A stretch of DNA of 21,304 bases from positions 1-21,304 of the IMG/VR virus record IMGVR_UViG_3300027976_000252; one strand, given 5' to 3'. The position numbers and the translations under genes are program-made. Below the pieces are notes generated by a model. The model was not told the origin of the DNA. It did no database searches and was given only the letters and a program-made list of their open reading frames with translations. This stretch comes from a virus. Below, piece by piece: positions 11,889 through 21,304 of this stretch (positions within the stretch are counted from its first letter, which is position 1; each line of letters starts with the position of its first letter).

Positions 11889-11890
11889 TC

Positions 11891-12364
11891 ATGCTCAAAC
11901 TTGATCTGTCAAAAAAGCCGCGCTGGCTTGAGCTGTCGCCCGGGGTCCGGGTGCAGCTGCTGCCGCTGACCACGGCACTGATGGTGTCCACCCGCAGCGA
12001 TATCACGGTCGAGACCCTGCCCGAAGACGCCAGCAACGAGGACCGCGCGCTGGTCTTTGCCAAGGCGCTGGGGCGGCGGGCAATGATTGCCTGGGAAGGT
12101 GTGGGCGACGCAGACGGCGAAGTGCTGGGCCTCACGCCCGAGGGTGTTGACGCTCTGCTCGATGTCTATCCGATCTTTGAAGCGTTCCAGACGGGCTACG
12201 TGGCCAAGGCACTGGTGTTGGAACAGGAAAAAAACGTCTCCGCGCCCTTGCCGACTGGCACTTCAGCGGGGGCGATCGGTACTGCGAGGCTTGCGAAGCC
12301 CTCGAGGCTTGCGAAGCCCTCGAGGCCTGCAAAGTCCCGTGCCCAGACTGCCCGGCAAAAGTGA
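11891..12364 (+). CDS. tail assembly chaperone, gpG-like
   Basis: This 157-residue protein begins MLKLDLSKKPRWLELSPGVR. Its helical core (about 50-110, RALVFAKALGRRAMIAWEGV, IFEAFQTGYVAKALVLEQEK) and place between tube and tape measure fit the tail chaperone that binds tape measure before tube polymerisation. The C-terminal 42 residues are low-complexity and include RLAKPS repeated twice. An A7 run at 12228-12234 gives a phased A AAA AAC slippery heptamer after residue 113, from which the -1 frame continues into the next ORF. A shifted G/GT-type product of about 234 residues is therefore likely. GGAGG lies upstream of the start. Confidence 0.8.
   Translation: MLKLDLSKKPRWLELSPGVRVQLLPLTTALMVSTRSDITVETLPEDASNEDRALVFAKALGRRAMIAWEGVGDADGEVLGLTPEGVDALLDVYPIFEAFQTGYVAKALVLEQEKNVSAPLPTGTSAGAIGTARLAKPSRLAKPSRPAKSRAQTARQK
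12229..12235 (+). promoter_or_regulatory. candidate -1 programmed frameshift heptamer A AAA AAC
   Basis: The zero frame reads GAA AAA AAC here, so the heptamer is phased exactly as X XXY YYZ. A -1 slip enters a frame open from 12181 to 12594, with no stop before the end of the following ORF. Two short GC hairpins lie about 50 and 70 bases downstream. That is farther than a classic stimulatory structure, so stimulation is uncertain. Confidence 0.65.
12286..12339 (+). repeat. 18-bp tandem repeat, two perfect copies and one degenerate
   Basis: GAGGCTTGCGAAGCCCTC occurs at 12286-12303 and 12304-12321, followed by a diverged copy at 12322-12339. The unit is a multiple of three, so both reading frames are kept: zero frame RLAKPS repeats, -1 frame EACEAL repeats. 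Each perfect copy contains GGCTT-GCG-AAGCC, a five-base-pair hairpin. It lies inside the chaperone overlap region. Confidence 0.9.
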
Positions 12365-12594
12365 ACCGCCCCCAGACTTTCGAGGGGGTGCAGATCTGGG
12401 ACCTGGTTGGGCGGTTGGGCGGCCAGCTGCGCGCGACACGGCAAATCATCCTCGGCTGGGACATGGGTGCGGCCCTCGCCATGGCGCGTGCCCTTGGCAT
12501 CAACGGCCTCGTGGCGATGGAACTGCTGCCCGAGATCGAGGCGGTGATGGTCAAAAAAGTAAACGAACGGATTGGAGAGCAGGATGTCCGATAA
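12361..12594 (+). CDS. DUF7697-like protein, probable gpT-type chaperone extension
   Basis: The 77-residue ORF begins MNRPQTFEGVQIWDLVGRLG and is helical, ending VKKVNERIGEQDVR. It resembles the DUF7697 family of small proteins found just before tape measure genes. GTG at 12361 overlaps the previous stop (GTGA), but no good ribosome site precedes it. The frame is open upstream to 12181, and from the A AAA AAC at 12229 it encodes a cysteine-rich link (RYCEACEALE ... VPCPDCPAKV). It may therefore be made mainly as the C-terminal part of a frameshift fusion, like lambda gpGT, or by coupled reinitiation. It overlaps the tape measure start by 11 bases. Confidence 0.75.
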   Translation: MNRPQTFEGVQIWDLVGRLGGQLRATRQIILGWDMGAALAMARALGINGLVAMELLPEIEAVMVKKVNERIGEQDVR

Positions 12595-13720
12595 ACGCGT
12601 CTTCGTGCGTCTCGCCGCCGTGGGCGGACGTCAGGTCAAGGCCGAGCTGCACGGCATTGGCGACGCCGGTGCCCGTGGCCTCGGTCGTCTCTCGCGCGAG
12701 GTCGATATTGCAAATGCACGCCTCGCGGCCTTCACCCGCCGGGCCAAGATCGCGGCCGCGGCGGCTGGTGCGGCCGTGGTCCTTGCAGGTGCTGCCATGA
12801 TCCGCTCGGGGCTGCAGACCATCGACCAGACAGCAAAGTTGGCGCAGTCGCTGGATACAACCGTCGAAAGCCTGCAGGTTCTGGAGCGTGCCGCTGACCT
12901 CTCGGGCGTCTCCATGGGCAATGTCGAGCAGGCCACGGTGCAGCTGACACGGCGTTTAAGTCAGGCAGCCGCAGGTGCTGGCCCTGCCGTCGATGCGCTT
13001 GACCGCCTTGGTCTGTCTGTCAGCGCGCTGCAAAGCCTGCCGCTCGATCAGCGCATCGCATTGATCCAGGACCGGCTGGCAGAATTCGTGCCGGAGGCCG
13101 AGCGCGCCGCTGTCGCCTCGCAGCTCTTTGGCGACCGCGCCGCCCTCGTGTTCACGCGCATCGACACCGCCACGCTGCGCCAGGCCACCGCTGATGTGAA
13201 TGATTTTGGGATTGTTGTCTCCGAACAGGACGCCGACCAGATCGAACGGACCAATGATGCAATCTCGCGCCTTGGCCTGATCTGGCGCGGCGTCTCGAAC
13301 CAGCTGGCGGTCGCCGCCGCGCCTGCGCTTGAGGCGGTCGCTGATGCTCTGGCAGCCATGGCGCGCACCACCGGCCCACTTGGGGTGGCCATCAAGGGCC
13401 TGTTTGAGAATATCGGGCGGCTGACCACCTACGCTGTGACCTTTGCAGGCGTGATGGCTGGCAGGTGGGTGGCAGGGCTTGTGACCGCGACCTTCTCGGT
13501 CAGTGGACTGGTGACCGGTCTGGTTTTCCTGCGGGCCGCGTTGCTCCGGACCGGCATCGGCGCGCTGATCGTCGGCGCGGGCGAACTGGTCTATCAGTTC
13601 ACCCGCCTTGTCGCTGGTGCCGGTGGGTTCGGCAACGCCATGGACCTGCTGAAAGACGTGGCAGTCGAGGTCTGGGACCGGGTGTCGCTCAGCGCGGATG
13701 CCGCCTGGGCGCGTGTCTAG
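12584..13720 (+). CDS. tape measure protein, N-terminal part (stopped by in-frame TAG)
   Basis: The 378 residues encoded before a TAG at 13718 form the start of a tail tape measure protein, which sets tail length and later enters the host envelope. It begins MSDKRVFVRLAAVGGRQVKA, then coiled-coil segments and hydrophobic stretches (AAAAAGAAVVLAGAAMI near 50; several between about 285 and 345). IQDRLAEFVPEAERAAVASQ and LFGDRAALVFTRID are typical of this family. GGAGAGCAGG precedes the ATG at 12584. The same frame stays open beyond the TAG to 14998, so the full gene would encode 804 residues. This fragment alone should not make a working tail. Confidence 0.88.
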   Translation: MSDKRVFVRLAAVGGRQVKAELHGIGDAGARGLGRLSREVDIANARLAAFTRRAKIAAAAAGAAVVLAGAAMIRSGLQTIDQTAKLAQSLDTTVESLQVLERAADLSGVSMGNVEQATVQLTRRLSQAAAGAGPAVDALDRLGLSVSALQSLPLDQRIALIQDRLAEFVPEAERAAVASQLFGDRAALVFTRIDTATLRQATADVNDFGIVVSEQDADQIERTNDAISRLGLIWRGVSNQLAVAAAPALEAVADALAAMARTTGPLGVAIKGLFENIGRLTTYAVTFAGVMAGRWVAGLVTATFSVSGLVTGLVFLRAALLRTGIGALIVGAGELVYQFTRLVAGAGGFGNAMDLLKDVAVEVWDRVSLSADAAWARV

Positions 13721-14998
13721 TCTGGTTGGGCCACGGCGCAGGCTGGTATTTACGACGGGCTGCAAGCAGCCACAGAGGCCGTGGTGGGCTGGGCAAACAG
13801 CCCTGTCAATACCTTTGAGGGCACGTTCCTTGCGGTGCAGGCAATCTGGGGCGCGTTGCCAGATGTGTTTGACCGGGTCGGAGCCCTTGCGATCAATGGG
13901 CTCGTCGAGGTGATGGAGACCGGGATCGCGGGCATCACGGAGGCGATCAACACCGTACTGACCCTTGGCGGTCGGCGTCCCGATTGGGCCATCACTGCAC
14001 CTGATCTTTCAGCGTGGCAATCGGTTGTTCCCGAAGCCGTCAATCTTGGGGACCGCGCAAGGGCGGCCTACGACAGCGCGTTCTCGGACAATCCGTTCCA
14101 AGCGCCTGATCTCTTCGGGGGCATGGCGGACGACGCGCGCGGCCGGGCATCTGGGTATTCCGAGGCGGCAGGCATGCTATCGGACGCAGCCTCGCGGCCC
14201 ATGACGGCATGGCAGGCGCTGAAAGATGCGGTTTCCGGCGCGGGCGATGAAGGCACGGCGGCGCTCGAAAGTGCTGCGACCTCGGCGGATCGGTTCAACG
14301 ACGCATTGGAGGAAACCGAAGAGCAGGCTGGACGCGCTGGCGGGGCGGCAAAAAAGGCAGGTGAGGACGCAGCCAAGGGTGCAGAAGCAGCAGCGACCGG
14401 ATGGCAGGCGGTGGTAAATGCGGTCAGTGAATATGCCGACAAAGCGCGCGATGTCGGCGCGGACGTGGGCAGCGTGCTGGTCAGCGCGTTTCAAAGCGCG
14501 GAAGACGCGATCGGGAACTTTGTCAAGACCGGCAAGCTGGACTTCAAAGGCCTGGTCACCTCAATGATCGCGGACCTTGCCAAGCTGGGCGCGCGCAAAT
14601 TCATCCTCGGACCCATCGCCAACGCGCTCTCCGGGGCTCTGGGCAATCTCGGCGGGATGTTTGCAGGCGTATTTCATCAGGGCGGTATTGTGGGCGGCCC
14701 TGCGCCATCGCGGATGGTTCCGGCCATGGCCTTTGCCAACGCAACGCGCATGCACAACGGCGGCTGGGCTGGCCTCAAATCCGACGAGGTGCCAGCCATC
14801 CTGCAGCGCGGTGAGCGCGTGCTGTCGCGCAAAGAGTCCCGCGCTTATGGCGACGGCAATGGTGGTGGCGGTGGCAATGGTGGCGGCGCGGTCACGGTCA
14901 ACATCATGACGCGGGACGCAGAGAGCTTCCGCCAATCGCGCACGCAGGTCGCGGCCGATATGGCGCGCGCAGTCTCCATGGGCCGGAGGGGCATGTGA
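13721..14998 (+). pseudogene. tape measure protein, C-terminal part after in-frame TAG
   Basis: The frame of the preceding gene resumes directly after the TAG and runs 425 codons. It contains helical, alanine-rich segments (AGRAGGAAKKAGEDAAKGAE), then the conserved tape measure end: NFVKTGKLDFKGLVTSMIAD, a hydrophobic stretch, FHQGGIVGG, and PAILQRGERVLSRKE. A Gly/Asn-rich tail (GDGNGGGGGNGGGA) follows, then a helical C-terminus. GTG codons at 13781/13784 could restart translation but have only a weak upstream AGAGG. The fragment is most simply the rest of a gene broken by one nonsense change, or read through. Its TGA overlaps the next ATG. Confidence 0.85.
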
Positions 14999-15627
14999 TG
15001 GCGTTTCACGAAGTGCAGTTTCCCGACAACATCAGCCGCGGGGCGCGCGGCGGTCCACAGCGGCGCACCCAGATCGTGGAGCTGGCCTCAGGCCGCGAGG
15101 AGCGCAACGCCTCTTGGTCCGCGTCCCGGCGTCGCTACGACGTTTCCTACGGCGTTCGGCGTGCTGATGATCTGCACGCGGTGGTTGCCTTCTTCGAGGC
15201 ACGCCTCGGGCGGCTTTATGGCTTCCGGTTCAAGGATTGGGCCGATTACAAATCCTGCGCCCCCTCGCAGCGCATCTCCGAGATGGATCAGCCCATCGGG
15301 ATCGGTGACGGCACCACCACGACCTTCGCGCTGACCAAAGCCTACGGCACGGTGCCGCATGTCTATCAGCGGCGCATCGAGAAGCCGGTCGCCGGAACAA
15401 TCCGCGTCGCGCTGAGCGGTGCCGAGCAGTTCAACGGCTGGTCGAGCGACCCCGTCACCGGGATCGTCACCTTTGAGGTCGCTCCGGATTCCGGCGTGAC
15501 CATCACTGCAGGCTACCAGTTCGACGTGCCCGTCCGCTTCGACAGCGATCTGATGGACGTCACCCTCGATATCGAACGCCTCGGATCCATCACCTCAATC
15601 CCGCTTGTGGAAATCCGTCTCAGCTAA
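14998..15627 (+). CDS. DUF2460 tail protein (distal-tail, Dit-like)
   Basis: This 209-residue protein begins MAFHEVQFPDNISRGARGGP, with QRRTQIVELASGREERNASW, SRRRYDVSYGVRRADDLHAV and FFEARLGRLYGFRFKDWADY. These are strong matches to the DUF2460/TIGR02217 family, whose member in Rhodobacter gene transfer agent (orf g12) is a distal tail protein. It should cap the tail tube and anchor the tip. ATG at 14998 overlaps the tape measure stop (TGATG), with GGAGG upstream. It is the only clear tail-tip protein of a known GTA/siphophage type here. Confidence 0.92.
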   Translation: MAFHEVQFPDNISRGARGGPQRRTQIVELASGREERNASWSASRRRYDVSYGVRRADDLHAVVAFFEARLGRLYGFRFKDWADYKSCAPSQRISEMDQPIGIGDGTTTTFALTKAYGTVPHVYQRRIEKPVAGTIRVALSGAEQFNGWSSDPVTGIVTFEVAPDSGVTITAGYQFDVPVRFDSDLMDVTLDIERLGSITSIPLVEIRLS

Positions 15628-15638
15628 GGACCCCGCTC

Positions 15639-17609
15639 ATGCAGACCTATACCGCCCTTGAACATCGCCCCGGCGATACGCCCCAGCTTTATGATCTCGG
15701 CGGTGGGCTTGTCACCCAGAACACCTTTGGCAAAGTAATCCGGCTCGATGCCAGCCAGCAGGTGACAGCACTGACCCCGGTGCCAATTGAGGCCGAGGAG
15801 CGCTACGCGTTTCGCGCTGTGTTTCGACGGGCAACGAACAGCCCCGATCCGTCCGACGACGCGATTTCCTGCGGCATCGACTGGCTGGCTGCGGATAAGA
15901 CGGCCCTTTCAACCACCACCATTAACACCATCCTCAACTTCAGCGTCGTGGATGGGCGGCGCGAGGTTCGCACCTCAGTCGTGGCCGAAGCCGAGGGTCC
16001 CGCCAGCGTGATAGCCCCGATTGGCGCGCGCTACGGCGTCCCATGGGTGCGCACATTCGGCCTTGGGCACGCAACAGACGTCGAGGTCTGCAGCCTTGAG
16101 CGGTTGCCTTTCGTCTCAGTGCCCGTGGCGCGCACCTTCTATGTCACCATGGATGGCAAGGACCTCAATGAGGGCAACTCGCTGACCTCGCCCCTTGCCA
16201 GCATCACTGAAGGCCTCACGCGCGCCGCAGCAGTTGCCCAGCCCTGCGTGGTGATCGTGCAGCCCGGCGAATACCTCGTGCCCTCTGATACGGTGATCCC
16301 CGCCAATTGCGCCCTTTACGGCTATGATCTGCGCGTCACCAAGCTGAGCCTGCCGCCGGGCCAGGAGGTGAACAACATGTTCCAGATGTCCAACGGCATC
16401 AAAGCCCGTGGCTTTACCTTCTCAAATCTGCGCCATGAGCCCTATACGCTGGCCGGTGGCCCGCCGCAAAAAGGCTGGGCTTTCGTCTTCAAGCCAGGCG
16501 AAGTCCTCACCCGCTCGCCCTATATTGCCGATTGCTCGCAGCTGCACAGCTTCACCCAAGACCAGATGGCCCTGCCGGTGGATAAGGCCGCAGGCAATCC
16601 GCTGATGCCGCGCGGCGGTGGCAACCTGCTGGCCGACGGATCGGTCCTCGCCCCGTCCTCACCGCTGCGCTCGGTCGTGGTCGACAGCTTTACCGCAATC
16701 AATCCCAATGGCGTCGGCTATGCCGTCACCCGCAACGCCTTTGTCCAGCTGGTCTCGGTGTTCACCAACTGGGCCCGCGTCGGCCTTTGGGCCCATGATG
16801 GCGGACAGATCACCGTTGCCAACTCCAACAACACCTTTGGCGATTATGCTCTTGCCGCTACCGGGTTCCGCAACACCGTCCAGATCGAAGGGCTGGCAGG
16901 AACCGGCGTGCTGGCCACGCACACCGCTGCCGCCAACACGATCACCGCCCAGACCGAGGCTATCATCACAGCCCTGATGGGCACGCGCTATCCAACGCTT
17001 GCAGGCTTCAACGGCCTGTCAGCGCGTGACAAGGCTTTCACCGAGCGCGACACTCGCACGCTTCTGCGCAGCCTCATCAATGATCTGCGTTCAGGTCAGG
17101 ATCGCGGCGCGCAGTTCTTTACCAAAGGGCTCTTTGACTGGAACGCCAATTACGCCTTCTCGGTGGCCCTCGTGCCGCTGTTTCTCGCCACTTGGGAGCA
17201 GGTTCGCTTGGAACTGATCGCGCGGATCAGCAGTGATGCAGCACAAGCAATGATCAGCGCCCTGATCGGGTTGATCTCAGATGTGGTCACGCGCCCGCAG
17301 GATTACCGCGTGGGCTTTGCCTCCGTCATCGAGGCCACCAGCCAGCAATTCAGCTACGCAGGCTCCGGCGTTAACTACAACGCGCTGCCCTTTAGCCAGC
17401 GCGGCACCGGCCGCGCGCCCGATCCGGCCAGTACGCTGCTGAAGACCGGCGGCGGCCGGATCTACGCCACCTTCTCCACCGAGGTCGGCGATACCTATCT
17501 CGGCGAAGACCTGCGCGTGGATTTTGAGCGCAACACCATCGAAGGCCAGGCCTTCTCGCGCGGTGTGCAGAACATCGCCCTCCCCCTCATCATCGGTCTC
17601 GGAGCTTGA
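15639..17609 (+). CDS. tail spike/fibre with probable right-handed beta-helix
   Basis: This 656-residue protein has an N-terminal beta domain (1-160) and then, near 164, RTFYVTMDGKDLNEGNSLTS, with PLASITEGLTRAAAV and CVVIVQPGEYLVPSDTVIPA. This is the DUF1565-like entry into a parallel beta-helix (pectin-lyase fold), extending to about residue 430 with short turn repeats rich in Asn and Gly. A helical section (about 430-560) follows, then a beta C-terminus (YATFSTEVGDTYLGEDLRVD and beyond). This architecture is seen in trimeric phage spikes that bind or cut surface polysaccharide; catalytic residues cannot be identified. AAGGA lies upstream of ATG 15639. Its position after the Dit-like gene supports a host-contact role. 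Confidence 0.75.
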   Translation: MQTYTALEHRPGDTPQLYDLGGGLVTQNTFGKVIRLDASQQVTALTPVPIEAEERYAFRAVFRRATNSPDPSDDAISCGIDWLAADKTALSTTTINTILNFSVVDGRREVRTSVVAEAEGPASVIAPIGARYGVPWVRTFGLGHATDVEVCSLERLPFVSVPVARTFYVTMDGKDLNEGNSLTSPLASITEGLTRAAAVAQPCVVIVQPGEYLVPSDTVIPANCALYGYDLRVTKLSLPPGQEVNNMFQMSNGIKARGFTFSNLRHEPYTLAGGPPQKGWAFVFKPGEVLTRSPYIADCSQLHSFTQDQMALPVDKAAGNPLMPRGGGNLLADGSVLAPSSPLRSVVVDSFTAINPNGVGYAVTRNAFVQLVSVFTNWARVGLWAHDGGQITVANSNNTFGDYALAATGFRNTVQIEGLAGTGVLATHTAAANTITAQTEAIITALMGTRYPTLAGFNGLSARDKAFTERDTRTLLRSLINDLRSGQDRGAQFFTKGLFDWNANYAFSVALVPLFLATWEQVRLELIARISSDAAQAMISALIGLISDVVTRPQDYRVGFASVIEATSQQFSYAGSGVNYNALPFSQRGTGRAPDPASTLLKTGGGRIYATFSTEVGDTYLGEDLRVDFERNTIEGQAFSRGVQNIALPLIIGLGA

Positions 17610-17613
17610 ACCC

Positions 17614-18027
17614 ATGGTCACCATCACCACACCGCGCCCGCCCCTGAACCTCTTCGAGGTGGTTCGCGCAGAAATCGGCGTCGAGTGGACGACCATCTAT
17701 GACGTGCCCGACTATCTGATCCCCAGCGAGGGCCCAAACCCCGCCCGCAGCATCGGGACGGCCGCCATCATGACCGGTGTGCTCATCACCCCCACCGCCG
17801 GGGCCTCCGTGCGTGTCTCAATCCGGATCCTCGCCTTCAACAACACGCCCTGGCTTTTGCTGGACCGCGCCTTCGCCCCCGCAGGCGATGTTCTCTCCAT
17901 CGGGCTTGATCGCCAGGTGCTGCGCGCGGGCGAGCGCTTCCAGATGAAGGTCGAAGCCAGCGAGGCGGCCATCGCGCATTTCTCCTTCATCCTCAACCAA
18001 CGCGAAGACTTCACGGTGATTTCATGA
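17614..18027 (+). CDS. small tail-tip structural protein, unknown family
   Basis: This 137-residue protein begins MVTITTPRPPLNLFEVVRAE and appears all-beta (strands around GTAAIMTGVLITPTAGASVR, VSIRILAFNNTPWLLLDRAF and HFSFILNQREDFTVIS). It has no transmembrane segment or signal peptide. Its place between spike and DUF285 protein, with a GGAG upstream and a four-base ATGA overlap to the next gene, suggests a virion part or an adaptor for the fibre. No family is recognised. Confidence 0.65.
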   Translation: MVTITTPRPPLNLFEVVRAEIGVEWTTIYDVPDYLIPSEGPNPARSIGTAAIMTGVLITPTAGASVRVSIRILAFNNTPWLLLDRAFAPAGDVLSIGLDRQVLRAGERFQMKVEASEAAIAHFSFILNQREDFTVIS

Positions 18028-18596
18028 GCATCCTGCGCTACGCCACTGGCCGGGGCCGCTTTGTCGGCCAGTCCCTGATTTATCCCATCCCGATCCCGCT
18101 TGATGCAGCGCAGTATTTTGGGGCGGCGGTGGTGGGTGAGAACGGCCAGTTCTACTATTCCAACGGCCTTGAATGGATCGTGCCCATCGAGGACAACGAG
18201 ATCCTGCGCCCCTCAGCACTTGTGCCCTTCAGCGTTGATGAGCGCACCCAGCTGCGCTTGACCACGTTCCGTTCACCTGCGGGCCTTGAGCAAACCGGCA
18301 TCATCTTCGAGGTCTCCAGCAACAGCGTGGATTTTGACGGCGCACTGACGCGCATCGTGGCAGGCTTTGGCAATACCTATCAGCTGGAATTCCCCGAGGA
18401 CGGCTTTGGCCCCGGCGACCGCGTGCTCTGGCGCGCCGCCTATACCGGCACCAGCGGCGCGCAGTCGAACTTCTCTGTGCCCTATGCCCAGACCTTCCCC
18501 GAGCTGATCTCGCGCCCCACGCCCATCACCCGCGAGAACGCCATCACCGGCACAGTGCGCGTGACGGATTTCAAGCGCGTCGCTATTTGGCTATAG
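18024..18596 (+). CDS. N-terminal part of DUF285 tail protein (ended by frameshift)
   Basis: The 190 residues begin MSILRYATGRGRFVGQSLIY and include beta segments with fibronectin-type-III character (TYQLEFPEDGFGPGDRVLWR, then AAYTGTSGAQSNFSVPYAQT). The frame stops at TAG 18594-18596 after RVAIWL. Removing one T from the TTT at 18586-18588 gives RVAIGYSYGETQTAFYAPD, which continues smoothly into the +1 frame of the next ORF. The intact gene (18024-20892) would encode about 955 residues: an attachment domain followed by PKD-like and leucine-rich repeats. Either the gene is broken or the base is a sequencing error. Confidence 0.75.
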   Translation: MSILRYATGRGRFVGQSLIYPIPIPLDAAQYFGAAVVGENGQFYYSNGLEWIVPIEDNEILRPSALVPFSVDERTQLRLTTFRSPAGLEQTGIIFEVSSNSVDFDGALTRIVAGFGNTYQLEFPEDGFGPGDRVLWRAAYTGTSGAQSNFSVPYAQTFPELISRPTPITRENAITGTVRVTDFKRVAIWL

Positions 18597-18666
18597 CTAC
18601 GGCGAGACCCAGACCGCGTTCTATGCGCCCGATGCCACGCCCGGCGTCGACGCACCCCTGATCGCC

Positions 18667-20892
18667 GTGACCCACACCGGCGGGGCCATCACCACTGTCC
18701 CGATCCCACCGCTGGTGCCTGCCGCAAATTATCTCTGGCGCAGCCGCTATGGCGGGCGGCTCAATGCCTCCGCCCCGATGATCTATTCCGCCTGGTCGTC
18801 CCCGCGCAGCTTCTTTCTCGGCGCAGCCTCCCTGATCCTGACCTATGATCTGGCGCTGGCCACCGTGCGCACGATCTTCGTGCCGCTCGGAGGTGGGACG
18901 ATCAACAATCCCCTCGATGTGACCATCGACTGGGGCGACGGCAGCTCTGAGCGCTTCACCACCGCCGGAATCAAGCCGCATACCTATGACGAGGGTCCGG
19001 GCCCGCGCGTGACTGTCACTATTACCGGTCGTCTCGACTGGTACGGCACCACCCAGCCCATCGATCAGGTAGGGCTGATCCGCGTCGAGAACATCGGCTT
19101 TGCCATGGGGCTCACCTCCCTGCGCGGCGCGTTTCGACAGACCGCCACAGCGCTGGATTATATCACCCCGAACATCCCCGAGACCGTCACCAGCTTTGAG
19201 GAGCTGTTCCAAGAGAGCGTTTGCGCCGCTGATCTGCGCGACCTGGATACCCGCAACATCACCAACCTGCGCAGGATCTTCTATCGCTCGAATGGCATCG
19301 GCCCAAACTGCGCCAATTGGGACGTGGGGCGCGTCACAGATGTCTTCCAGGCTTTCGCCGACAGCCAGATGAATAGCCCGTTCTCCCTTGGTAATTGGGA
19401 GAGCCTCACCTCAATGGAGGAGATGTTCGTCCAGACCATCGGCGATTACTACGGCGGACGCGACGGGCGTGTGCTGTTCAATCAGCCCATTGCCAGCTGG
19501 GACGTCAGCAGCATCACCAACATGCGCCTGATGTTTGGCTGCACAATGCGCGCCAATGCGGGCAAGATCGGTGCAGCCTTCAACCAGCCGCTGAATGGCT
19601 GGAATGTCTCCACTGTGCAAAACTTCGAAGGGTTCATGGGCCATCTCGCCAATCCCGGCATCAGCCAGAACACCCATGCGTTCAACCAACCGCTCAATCA
19701 GTGGAACACCTCCGCTGCCACCAACCTGCACCGCATGTTCGCGCTTGCACGCAGCTTCAACCAGGACATCTCCGCCTGGAACATCGCCAACGTCATCACC
19801 ACATCCGGCATGTTCCTCGGCGTGTCGGGGTTTCACGGGTTCAACCGCTCCCTCAATGCCTGGGACGTCACGAGCGTCACCGATATGAGCGAGATGTTCG
19901 CCAATTGCGATTACGACCAGCCGCTCGGTGCCTGGAACGTCGCGGCCGTCACCACCATGAACGGGATGTTTCGCAGCGGACTGTTCAACAAGCCAATCGG
20001 CACCTGGGACGTCTCAGGCGTTACCGACATGGCCTTCATGTTCGCCTCCGTCAGCACCAATGTTCAACGTGCCTTCTTCGATCAGGACATCGGTGGCTGG
20101 GACGTCTCGAACGTCATCACCATGGAGGCGATGTTTGGCGCGGTCGGCGCGGGCAATTCGCAGCGGGCCAATTTCAACAACGGCGGCAACCCCTCGATCG
20201 CGGCCTGGAATGTCTCTAACGTGACCAATATGCGCGCCATGTTCCGCTCTGGCGACAGCAACAGCGTCAACCCCTACCACCGCTTCAACCAGCCCATCGG
20301 GGTCTGGAACGTCGCCAATGTCACCACCCTGCGCGACATGTTTCGCGGCTGCCGCCAGAGCTTCGATCAGGATATTTCCCAGTGGCCGCTGCGCGCACTC
20401 GGCGTTGATCTGTCGGATTTCAAAGCGATTGATGTCGAGCGCGCCTTCTCGGAGGCCAATTATTCGCGCCTGCTGACCGGCTGGGCCAACCGTGTCGCCA
20501 CCATCAGTGGGCCGCTCAATGTTGCAGCGATCTTCGAGGCACGCCGTTTCAACACCACGGCCTATCAACCGGGGTCGCGATTTACCAACGCGGTAGCCGG
20601 GCGCGCGTTTCTCACGACGGCGCGCAGTCTGAGTGTAGCGGGGGCCACAACGCCCGCAGCAAACGGAGCCTATCCCTTTAACGCCGCCACCAGCGTCTAT
20701 CTCAACGCCAACGGCTGGTATTTCCTCAAAACCGGCCCCGACTGGACCCTCTACGACCCCGACGACAGCCCGCAGGCGACCGGCACTGGTGCCGATCCCT
20801 GGAGCGTCACCAGCTGGACCGGCTTGCTTTCAACCGCAACGCTGCTGATCGCAGGCGCCGCCTGGACACTTATCGGAGACACCCCCGCATGA
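18667..20892 (+). CDS. DUF285 (BspA-type leucine-rich repeat) tail protein, C-terminal part
   Basis: The GTG at 18667 is nominal; the frame is open from 18565, has no good start, and most likely continues the preceding ORF after a one-base frameshift. Domains: a fibronectin-III-like strand set (AANYLWRSRYGGRLNAS), a PKD-like domain (VTIDWGDGSSERFTTAGIKP, HTYDEGPG, VTVTITG; about 75-120), then about ten repeats at roughly residues 210-575. The repeat consensus is FNQPI..WDVS.VTNM..MF (for example FNQPIASWDVSSITNMRLMF and FNRSLNAWDVTSVTDMSEMF). This is the DUF285 signature of BspA-like adhesins. The C-terminal 120 residues are beta-rich and end in a probable folding or trimer domain. It likely contacts the host surface. 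Stop and next ATG overlap (ATGA). Confidence 0.85.
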   Translation: MTHTGGAITTVPIPPLVPAANYLWRSRYGGRLNASAPMIYSAWSSPRSFFLGAASLILTYDLALATVRTIFVPLGGGTINNPLDVTIDWGDGSSERFTTAGIKPHTYDEGPGPRVTVTITGRLDWYGTTQPIDQVGLIRVENIGFAMGLTSLRGAFRQTATALDYITPNIPETVTSFEELFQESVCAADLRDLDTRNITNLRRIFYRSNGIGPNCANWDVGRVTDVFQAFADSQMNSPFSLGNWESLTSMEEMFVQTIGDYYGGRDGRVLFNQPIASWDVSSITNMRLMFGCTMRANAGKIGAAFNQPLNGWNVSTVQNFEGFMGHLANPGISQNTHAFNQPLNQWNTSAATNLHRMFALARSFNQDISAWNIANVITTSGMFLGVSGFHGFNRSLNAWDVTSVTDMSEMFANCDYDQPLGAWNVAAVTTMNGMFRSGLFNKPIGTWDVSGVTDMAFMFASVSTNVQRAFFDQDIGGWDVSNVITMEAMFGAVGAGNSQRANFNNGGNPSIAAWNVSNVTNMRAMFRSGDSNSVNPYHRFNQPIGVWNVANVTTLRDMFRGCRQSFDQDISQWPLRALGVDLSDFKAIDVERAFSEANYSRLLTGWANRVATISGPLNVAAIFEARRFNTTAYQPGSRFTNAVAGRAFLTTARSLSVAGATTPAANGAYPFNAATSVYLNANGWYFLKTGPDWTLYDPDDSPQATGTGADPWSVTSWTGLLSTATLLIAGAAWTLIGDTPA

Positions 20893-21230
20893 CCCATGAT
20901 CTGACCGCAGACCGAAAAACGTACTGGATCGCGCATGACAGCGATAAAATCGAAAGCGGGGTCTTGCCAGAAGGCGGGACGCTCTCAACCGGCATGGCCT
21001 ACCTTGAAACCTATACCAGCCCTTTGGTGCAACACACCCGGCTGCACCTTTTGCGCAGCAACTATCCCACTGCCTTGGGCGAATGGCTGGAAACACTGCG
21101 GCTGCGCGACCCATCCCAGTTTCTTGCGGATTACCGCTGGCAGCGTGAAACCGGCGGCGTCACGCTTTCGTCTGGCGTCCGCATCCACACGGACCAGAAC
21201 ACACAAAGCAAAAGGCTCAATTCGCATTAG
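20889..21230 (+). CDS. DUF4376-like tail fibre assembly protein, apparently truncated
   Basis: The 113 residues begin MTHDLTADRKTYWIAHDSDK. The final part, DYRWQRETGGVTLSSGVRIH followed by TDQNTQSK, looks like the start of a DUF4376 domain, found in phage tail-fibre-associated proteins. That domain normally continues for roughly another 70-80 residues, but here the frame ends in RLNSH and TAG. The break falls near 21213, so the gene may be cut by an insertion or frameshift. GGAG lies ten bases upstream of the ATG, which overlaps the previous stop. Confidence 0.6.
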   Translation: MTHDLTADRKTYWIAHDSDKIESGVLPEGGTLSTGMAYLETYTSPLVQHTRLHLLRSNYPTALGEWLETLRLRDPSQFLADYRWQRETGGVTLSSGVRIHTDQNTQSKRLNSH

Positions 21231-21304
21231 CTATGCACATGGTCTAACCGGCAGGATTCCTACTGCTGCGGCGAGAACGGCGCGTGGTGTGGGTTGCCTT
21301 GGAA
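21231..21304. other. window end, no confirmed gene; possible mobile-element edge
   Basis: No plus-strand gene is recognised. On the minus strand two frames are open inward from the edge, one ending with TAG at 21244-21246 after 19 codons rich in Arg and Ser. A C-terminal end of a gene entering from the right is possible but unproven. The sequence from 21214 (GGCTCAATTCGC) could be the terminal repeat of an insertion sequence. Confidence 0.2.

Follow-up and report, generated by a model that had tools for sequence, protein, structure and literature searches.

A DUF285 leucine-rich-repeat protein in a probable mobile tail-adhesin cassette of temperate Rhodobacteraceae siphoviruses

We analysed the whole of an IMG/VR virus record (21,304 bases, the window), which carries a head and tail block comprising terminase, portal, tail tube and tape-measure genes and a distal tail protein of the DUF2460 family. 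The tail genes and the cassette that follows them are laid out as listed below, with residues numbered along the intact leucine-rich-repeat (LRR) protein.

12572–14998, + strand: tail tape-measure gene (Tape_meas_lam_C, 2e-22)
14995–15627, + strand: distal tail protein, DUF2460/Rcc01695 family (PF09343, 3.4e-87; TIGR02217, 255.5 bits against a cut-off of 136.65)
15639–17609, + strand: cassette gene 1, 656-aa protein (PHROG tail-fibre matches, best 2.4e-23)
17614–18027, + strand: cassette gene 2, 137-aa protein with no family assigned, its position kept in all window-type relatives
18024–20892, + strand: cassette gene 3, DUF285 LRR protein, frameshifted into ORFs 18024–18596 and 18667–20892
18024–18822, + strand: conserved anchor of the LRR protein, a short beta motif and two FN3-like domains (residues 1–267)
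18829–19056, + strand: PKD-like beta-sandwich with a WGDG motif (residues 270–345; AlphaFold2 beta strands at 270–337)
19057–20436, + strand: DUF285/PARCEL leucine-rich-repeat solenoid (residues 346–805), 12–13 recognisable units
20437–20625, + strand: C-terminal helix and linker (residues 806–868) with a conserved ANYSRLLTGWAN-type motif
20626–20892, + strand: small beta tip domain (residues 869–956)
20889–21304, + strand: cassette gene 4, DUF4376 protein (PF14301, 6.7e-20 on the homologue in L054)

The distal tail protein of the Rcc01695 family is the window's member of an RcGTA-like tail set. The window ends before the hub, NlpC peptidase and GTA_TIM genes of that set, and these three were read from relatives. 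Ahead of the tape measure, two ORFs overlap (11890–12594), and their equivalents in Rhodobacter phage RcSwan are tail assembly chaperones annotated as a joined frameshift product; by this analogy, the overlap is probably a programmed frameshift. An 18-bp tandem repeat (12285–12334, 2.8 copies) encoding RLAKPS-type repeats also sits in a tail-assembly gene upstream of the tape measure. Within the cassette, one region of the 656-aa protein is related to tail-fibre and baseplate-wedge families, and this protein is the probable tail-proximal attachment protein. The 137-aa protein is weakly conserved outside window-type relatives, and the DUF4376 protein is 186–191 aa long in relatives.

The initial annotation had placed DUF285 repeats in an ORF directly downstream of tail-tip genes, and both observations hold. 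The ORF at 18667–20892 adjoins the tape-measure and DUF2460 block, matches PF03382 (DUF285) with an E-value of 2.8e-80 (266.3 bits against a gathering cut-off of 25) and scores 66.2 bits with NCBIfam TIGR02167 (PARCEL repeat; cut-off 30). The 12–13 recognisable units lie at about 19291–20430, with degenerate turns also present from about 19117, and a strict repeat motif, counted 8 times in the LRR protein, was absent from all of 2000 shuffles. The units had been thought near-identical, which their DNA contradicts: pairwise identity averages 48% and reaches at most 71%, the longest exact repeat in the region is 13 nt, and Tandem Repeats Finder reported no array there. No other Pfam LRR profile, LRR_5 included, matched the ORF at E-values up to 0.1, the only non-DUF285 match being a sub-threshold one to Pcf11_C. 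The label 'BspA-type' is used here by annotation custom, and not in the strict sense of the LRR_5 profile.

Reading-frame breaks affect the window's copy. Between its two matches to the relatives' gene, the window has 643 nt and intact relatives have 645, and this 2-base loss splits the LRR gene into its two ORFs. A joined protein of 955 residues had been proposed; the window itself encodes it in two frames, while close relatives have a single uninterrupted protein of 956–964 aa starting at the equivalent of window position 18024. In addition, an in-frame TAG (13718–13720) interrupts the tape-measure gene, which is read through in relatives L006, L037 and L054, and the DUF4376 gene loses frame near 21213, close to the contig end. 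Because L006 is intact at all three sites, either the prophage in the window is decaying or its assembly contains errors; with its LRR gene frameshifted, this copy may be inactive. Elsewhere, the tail and LRR genes of a relative, contig 3300028301_000047 (L027, L052 and L124), align only in broken pieces, which suggests another degenerate copy or a poor assembly.

We modelled the LRR protein with AlphaFold2 from an alignment of 14 relatives. The model shows a confident solenoid over much of residues 391–800, a helix at 811–828 and a small beta domain near 870–943. Using VIA-align, the modelled repeat region was superposed on solved LRR proteins, namely 4u08 (Z = 16.4, 367 residues, rmsd 4.4) and the Bacteroides protein 4fs7 (Z = 13.8, 357 residues, rmsd 4.8), so that the prediction is of a leucine-rich-repeat fold. 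A Foldseek search of the repeat region against the PDB returned no significant match, and we found no PDB chain matching the LRR protein by sequence. In structure, the closest predicted viral proteins carry BspA names and come from Aeromonas phage D3 and giant viruses. A second model, of residues 1–431 from a more diverse alignment (mean pLDDT 77.8), contains two FN3-like domains followed by the WGDG beta-sandwich; the FN3-like pair aligns with 4lxo over 178 residues (Z = 12.3, rmsd 6.2). The PKD-like domain that had been proposed ahead of the repeats may correspond to this beta-sandwich, which looks PKD-like, although searches with PKD profiles, including PKD_4, did not match it. In order, the predicted fold has a pair of FN3-like domains, a cap resembling PKD, the LRR solenoid and finally the tip domain.

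The gene order around the LRR protein is widely kept. Twenty-four window-type viral contigs share the order tape measure, DUF2460 protein, 656-aa protein, small protein and LRR protein, and wherever these contigs run on further the DUF4376 gene comes next. Among the genomes scanned, Phaeovulum veldkampii DSM 11550 (L053) and Aliiroseovarius sp. S1123 (L054) carry this block too, and there the LRR gene is followed by genes for the DUF4376 protein, a protein of ~180 aa, the baseplate hub, the NlpC peptidase and the GTA_TIM protein. This gene order in the window-type contigs and both genomes rules out a cellular gene outside the prophage. In RcSwan, the distal tail, hub, peptidase and TIM-barrel genes are contiguous, and therefore the cassette of the L053 and L054 prophages is an insertion between distal-tail and hub genes, whose products make up the RcGTA baseplate region (PMC7296036). 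Reverse-strand genes are also inserted between conserved tail genes of these prophages (L054:481-1026 and L053:791-1609), at nearby but non-identical sites; they are possible cargo genes, and by eye the one in L054 looks like a GNAT acetyltransferase.

The complete cassette has five genes, encoding a beta-helix protein, the small protein, the LRR protein, the DUF4376 protein and a heme-oxygenase-like protein. This last protein has 170–184 aa (L054:12440-12973, L053:12295-12849, L126:10370-10879), its heme-oxygenase match is weak (0.0049, in L053), and no relative was found among phage isolates. It is up to 69% identical between siphovirus and podovirus cassettes and better conserved than the adhesin. 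A profile of the LRR protein's N-terminal anchor identified 30 viral contigs and 3 of 395 Rhodobacteraceae genomes, in phage loci only, and no isolated phages. All copies with sufficient downstream sequence run into DUF285 repeats; anchors carrying non-LRR tips were sought, and none occurs among those of the 30 contigs that extend far enough.

The anchor also reaches other tail types. Six of the contigs and the genome G305 have distant copies, 41–47% identical in the anchor. Upstream of the cassette, L131 and G305 have a different siphovirus hub, and in G305 we also identified portal, capsid and tape-measure genes. A single contig, L126 (73.6 kb), provides the N4-like instance: its terminase is 90% identical to those of N4-like roseophages, and its cassette is flanked on one side by gp69-, gp68- and gp67-like genes (75–90% identical) and on the other by genes 73–74% identical to the same phages. 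The beta-helix proteins of these cassettes have a common core and differ in how far they extend at the N-terminus: the window protein has no extension, that of L131 adds about 72 aa, that of G305 120 and that of L126 289, the last extension having no match among phage isolates. L127 is a siphovirus with the tail type of the window and L054, yet its beta-helix core shares 61% identity with the podovirus L126 against just 35% with L054, and its anchor 77% against 43%. This incongruence points to horizontal transfer of the cassette between virion types. By these comparisons, the cassette has been passed among siphoviruses of the RcGTA-like kind, siphoviruses of other kinds and one N4-like podovirus.

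Variation within the LRR protein is concentrated in its distal half. Among 13 close relatives, mean identity is 85–100% over residues 1–480 and 55–78% over residues 481–956. At the DNA level, L023 matches its nearest relatives at 75–99% identity as far as codon 440 and at 35–68% over codons 441–880, its extreme end being 87–98% identical to L044; the same alternative repeat block is found, 97% identical, in L026. The proposal of a modular protein is borne out here, the repeat half being swapped as a block and the N-terminal half conserved. The tip follows its own course: L014 combines L006-like repeats with an L045-like tip (95–96%), L041 combines L049-like repeats with an L013-like end, and L126 and L135 have no tip. 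In these alignments, the repeat block and the tip domain appear as two separately exchanged modules.

Unit-by-unit recombination of near-identical repeats had been suggested as the means of changing specificity, and we reject it. The units within one protein average 48% DNA identity, so gene conversion among them is not indicated, and the number of repeats is nearly constant among close relatives, at 11–13; L029 has 15 and L126 has 14. To judge from the sequences, the observed change is block exchange between phages, together with substitution. Within the repeats, the core positions (F, W, V, M, F) are nearly invariant and the exposed positions most variable, the most variable ones including those that flank the strand methionine. 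This pattern would fit a binding surface, and drift would give the same one. Pervasive positive selection left no sign, dN being well below dS in all regions of the LRR protein that were compared.

We consider it probable that the LRR protein belongs to a tail appendage of a temperate Rhodobacteraceae siphovirus, encoded by a mobile tail-adhesin cassette whose LRR rod, tip or both recognise a receptor. The gene lies inside or next to the tail-tip block and is kept across relatives, and its conserved anchor with a variable, exchangeable distal half is as expected of a receptor-binding protein. In the proposed mechanism, the beta-helix protein would hold the appendage to the tail through its tail-type-specific N-terminus, the FN3-like half of the LRR protein would dock on the beta-helix protein, and the rod and/or tip would bind a cell-surface receptor. 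Under this mechanism, exchanging the repeat block would alter host specificity. The earlier reading stands on three counts: the gene belongs to a phage, it is linked to tails and it is modular; the location of its product in the virion and receptor binding are what we infer from the sequence comparisons.

Other functions would also be compatible with parts of these observations. The LRR solenoid could be only a rigid, evolvable spacer, with either the C-terminal tip or the upstream beta-helix protein binding the receptor. The 656-aa protein has matches in tail-fibre families, beta-helix proteins commonly serve as tailspikes, and the tip is itself variable and exchanged on its own. However, two of the cassettes lack the tip altogether, and the beta-helix protein is well conserved (91–98% identical in most window-type phages) while the repeats vary most. 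The contrast between varying exposed positions and constant core positions also speaks against a mere spacer, with the qualification that neutral drift would match it too. We judge the spacer function unlikely. Less likely again is an appendage that binds polysaccharide, particles or other matrix in environmental or co-operative adhesion, with no specific infection receptor. FN3- and PKD-like domains are common in glycan-binding phage surface proteins and the contigs are metagenomic, but block exchange and the diversity of the distal half are better suited to the tracking of a receptor. Finally, a cargo gene for lysogenic conversion, expressed by the bacterium as a cell-surface adhesin like other DUF285 proteins, is very improbable: anchorless DUF285 proteins do occur among ordinary chromosomal genes in 4 of 395 genomes of the family, but the gene considered here lies on the same strand as the tail genes, nearly overlapping them, within the distal-tail-to-hub block, its anchor is confined to phage loci, its cassette also occurs in a contig related to lytic N4-like phages (L126), and no hydrophobic signal-like N-terminus is seen in its sequence.

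Returning to the tail adhesin, we advance a broader proposal tentatively, as a reasonable possibility: that phages use an LRR solenoid for host recognition, diversified by whole-block exchange, and that a portable cassette fits it to siphovirus and podovirus tails through interchangeable ends. A defined cassette in cultured, prophage-bearing strains offers a direct route to ask whether LRR rods decide host range. The same system bears on how adhesins jump between viruses with different tails, and it suggests a role for the many DUF285 proteins of other phages that have no assignment.

Of 50,697 phage records, 109 encode DUF285 proteins, chiefly those of jumbo, Synechococcus and Prevotella Lak phages; the proteins include Vibrio pir03 ORF200 and others from Aeromonas LAh10 and Synechococcus ACG-2014f, and mostly have no assigned function. 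They have the repeat family in common with the window protein but lack its anchor, which was found in none of the DUF285 proteins of phage isolates. The pir03 protein is listed as miscellaneous, of unknown role and not previously described in phages (PMC7765460), in the only paper discussing the domain that we found in the phage literature searched. In that literature, no DUF285 protein or LRR solenoid of another kind is described as a receptor-binding module of phages, and we found no solved structure matching the DUF285 repeat family by sequence. In Rhodobacteraceae chromosomes, the anchorless DUF285 proteins (L103 to L107) are about 600–1640 aa long. The DUF285 gene of Bo-Finn, examined for comparison, adjoins an annotated terminase small subunit and is not obviously a tail gene. 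The PARCEL proteins of Mycoplasma, Listeria and protists, for which surface-protein diversification has been proposed (PMC2996958), share with the window protein a repeat of 24–26 residues, above curated cut-offs. Unlike these cellular proteins, the window's repeats follow an FN3-like phage anchor in a tail block.

The tail tips of RcGTA, RcSwan and R4C contain the same distal tail, hub, peptidase and GTA_TIM genes as the window type (PMC7296036, PMC10276861). The fibre gene of RcGTA (Rcc00171) lies elsewhere and is lectin-like, whereas the window type has the LRR cassette between its distal-tail and hub genes. In the N4-like phage RPP1, the interval equivalent to the L126 cassette, between the same conserved flanking genes, holds gp80–82, which are virion proteins by mass spectrometry (PMC4193335). 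These are unrelated proteins encoded on the opposite strand, and the cassette takes their place in L126. Relative to known DUF285 proteins, the new element would be a phage adhesin cassette that is mobile and carries an LRR module for recognition.
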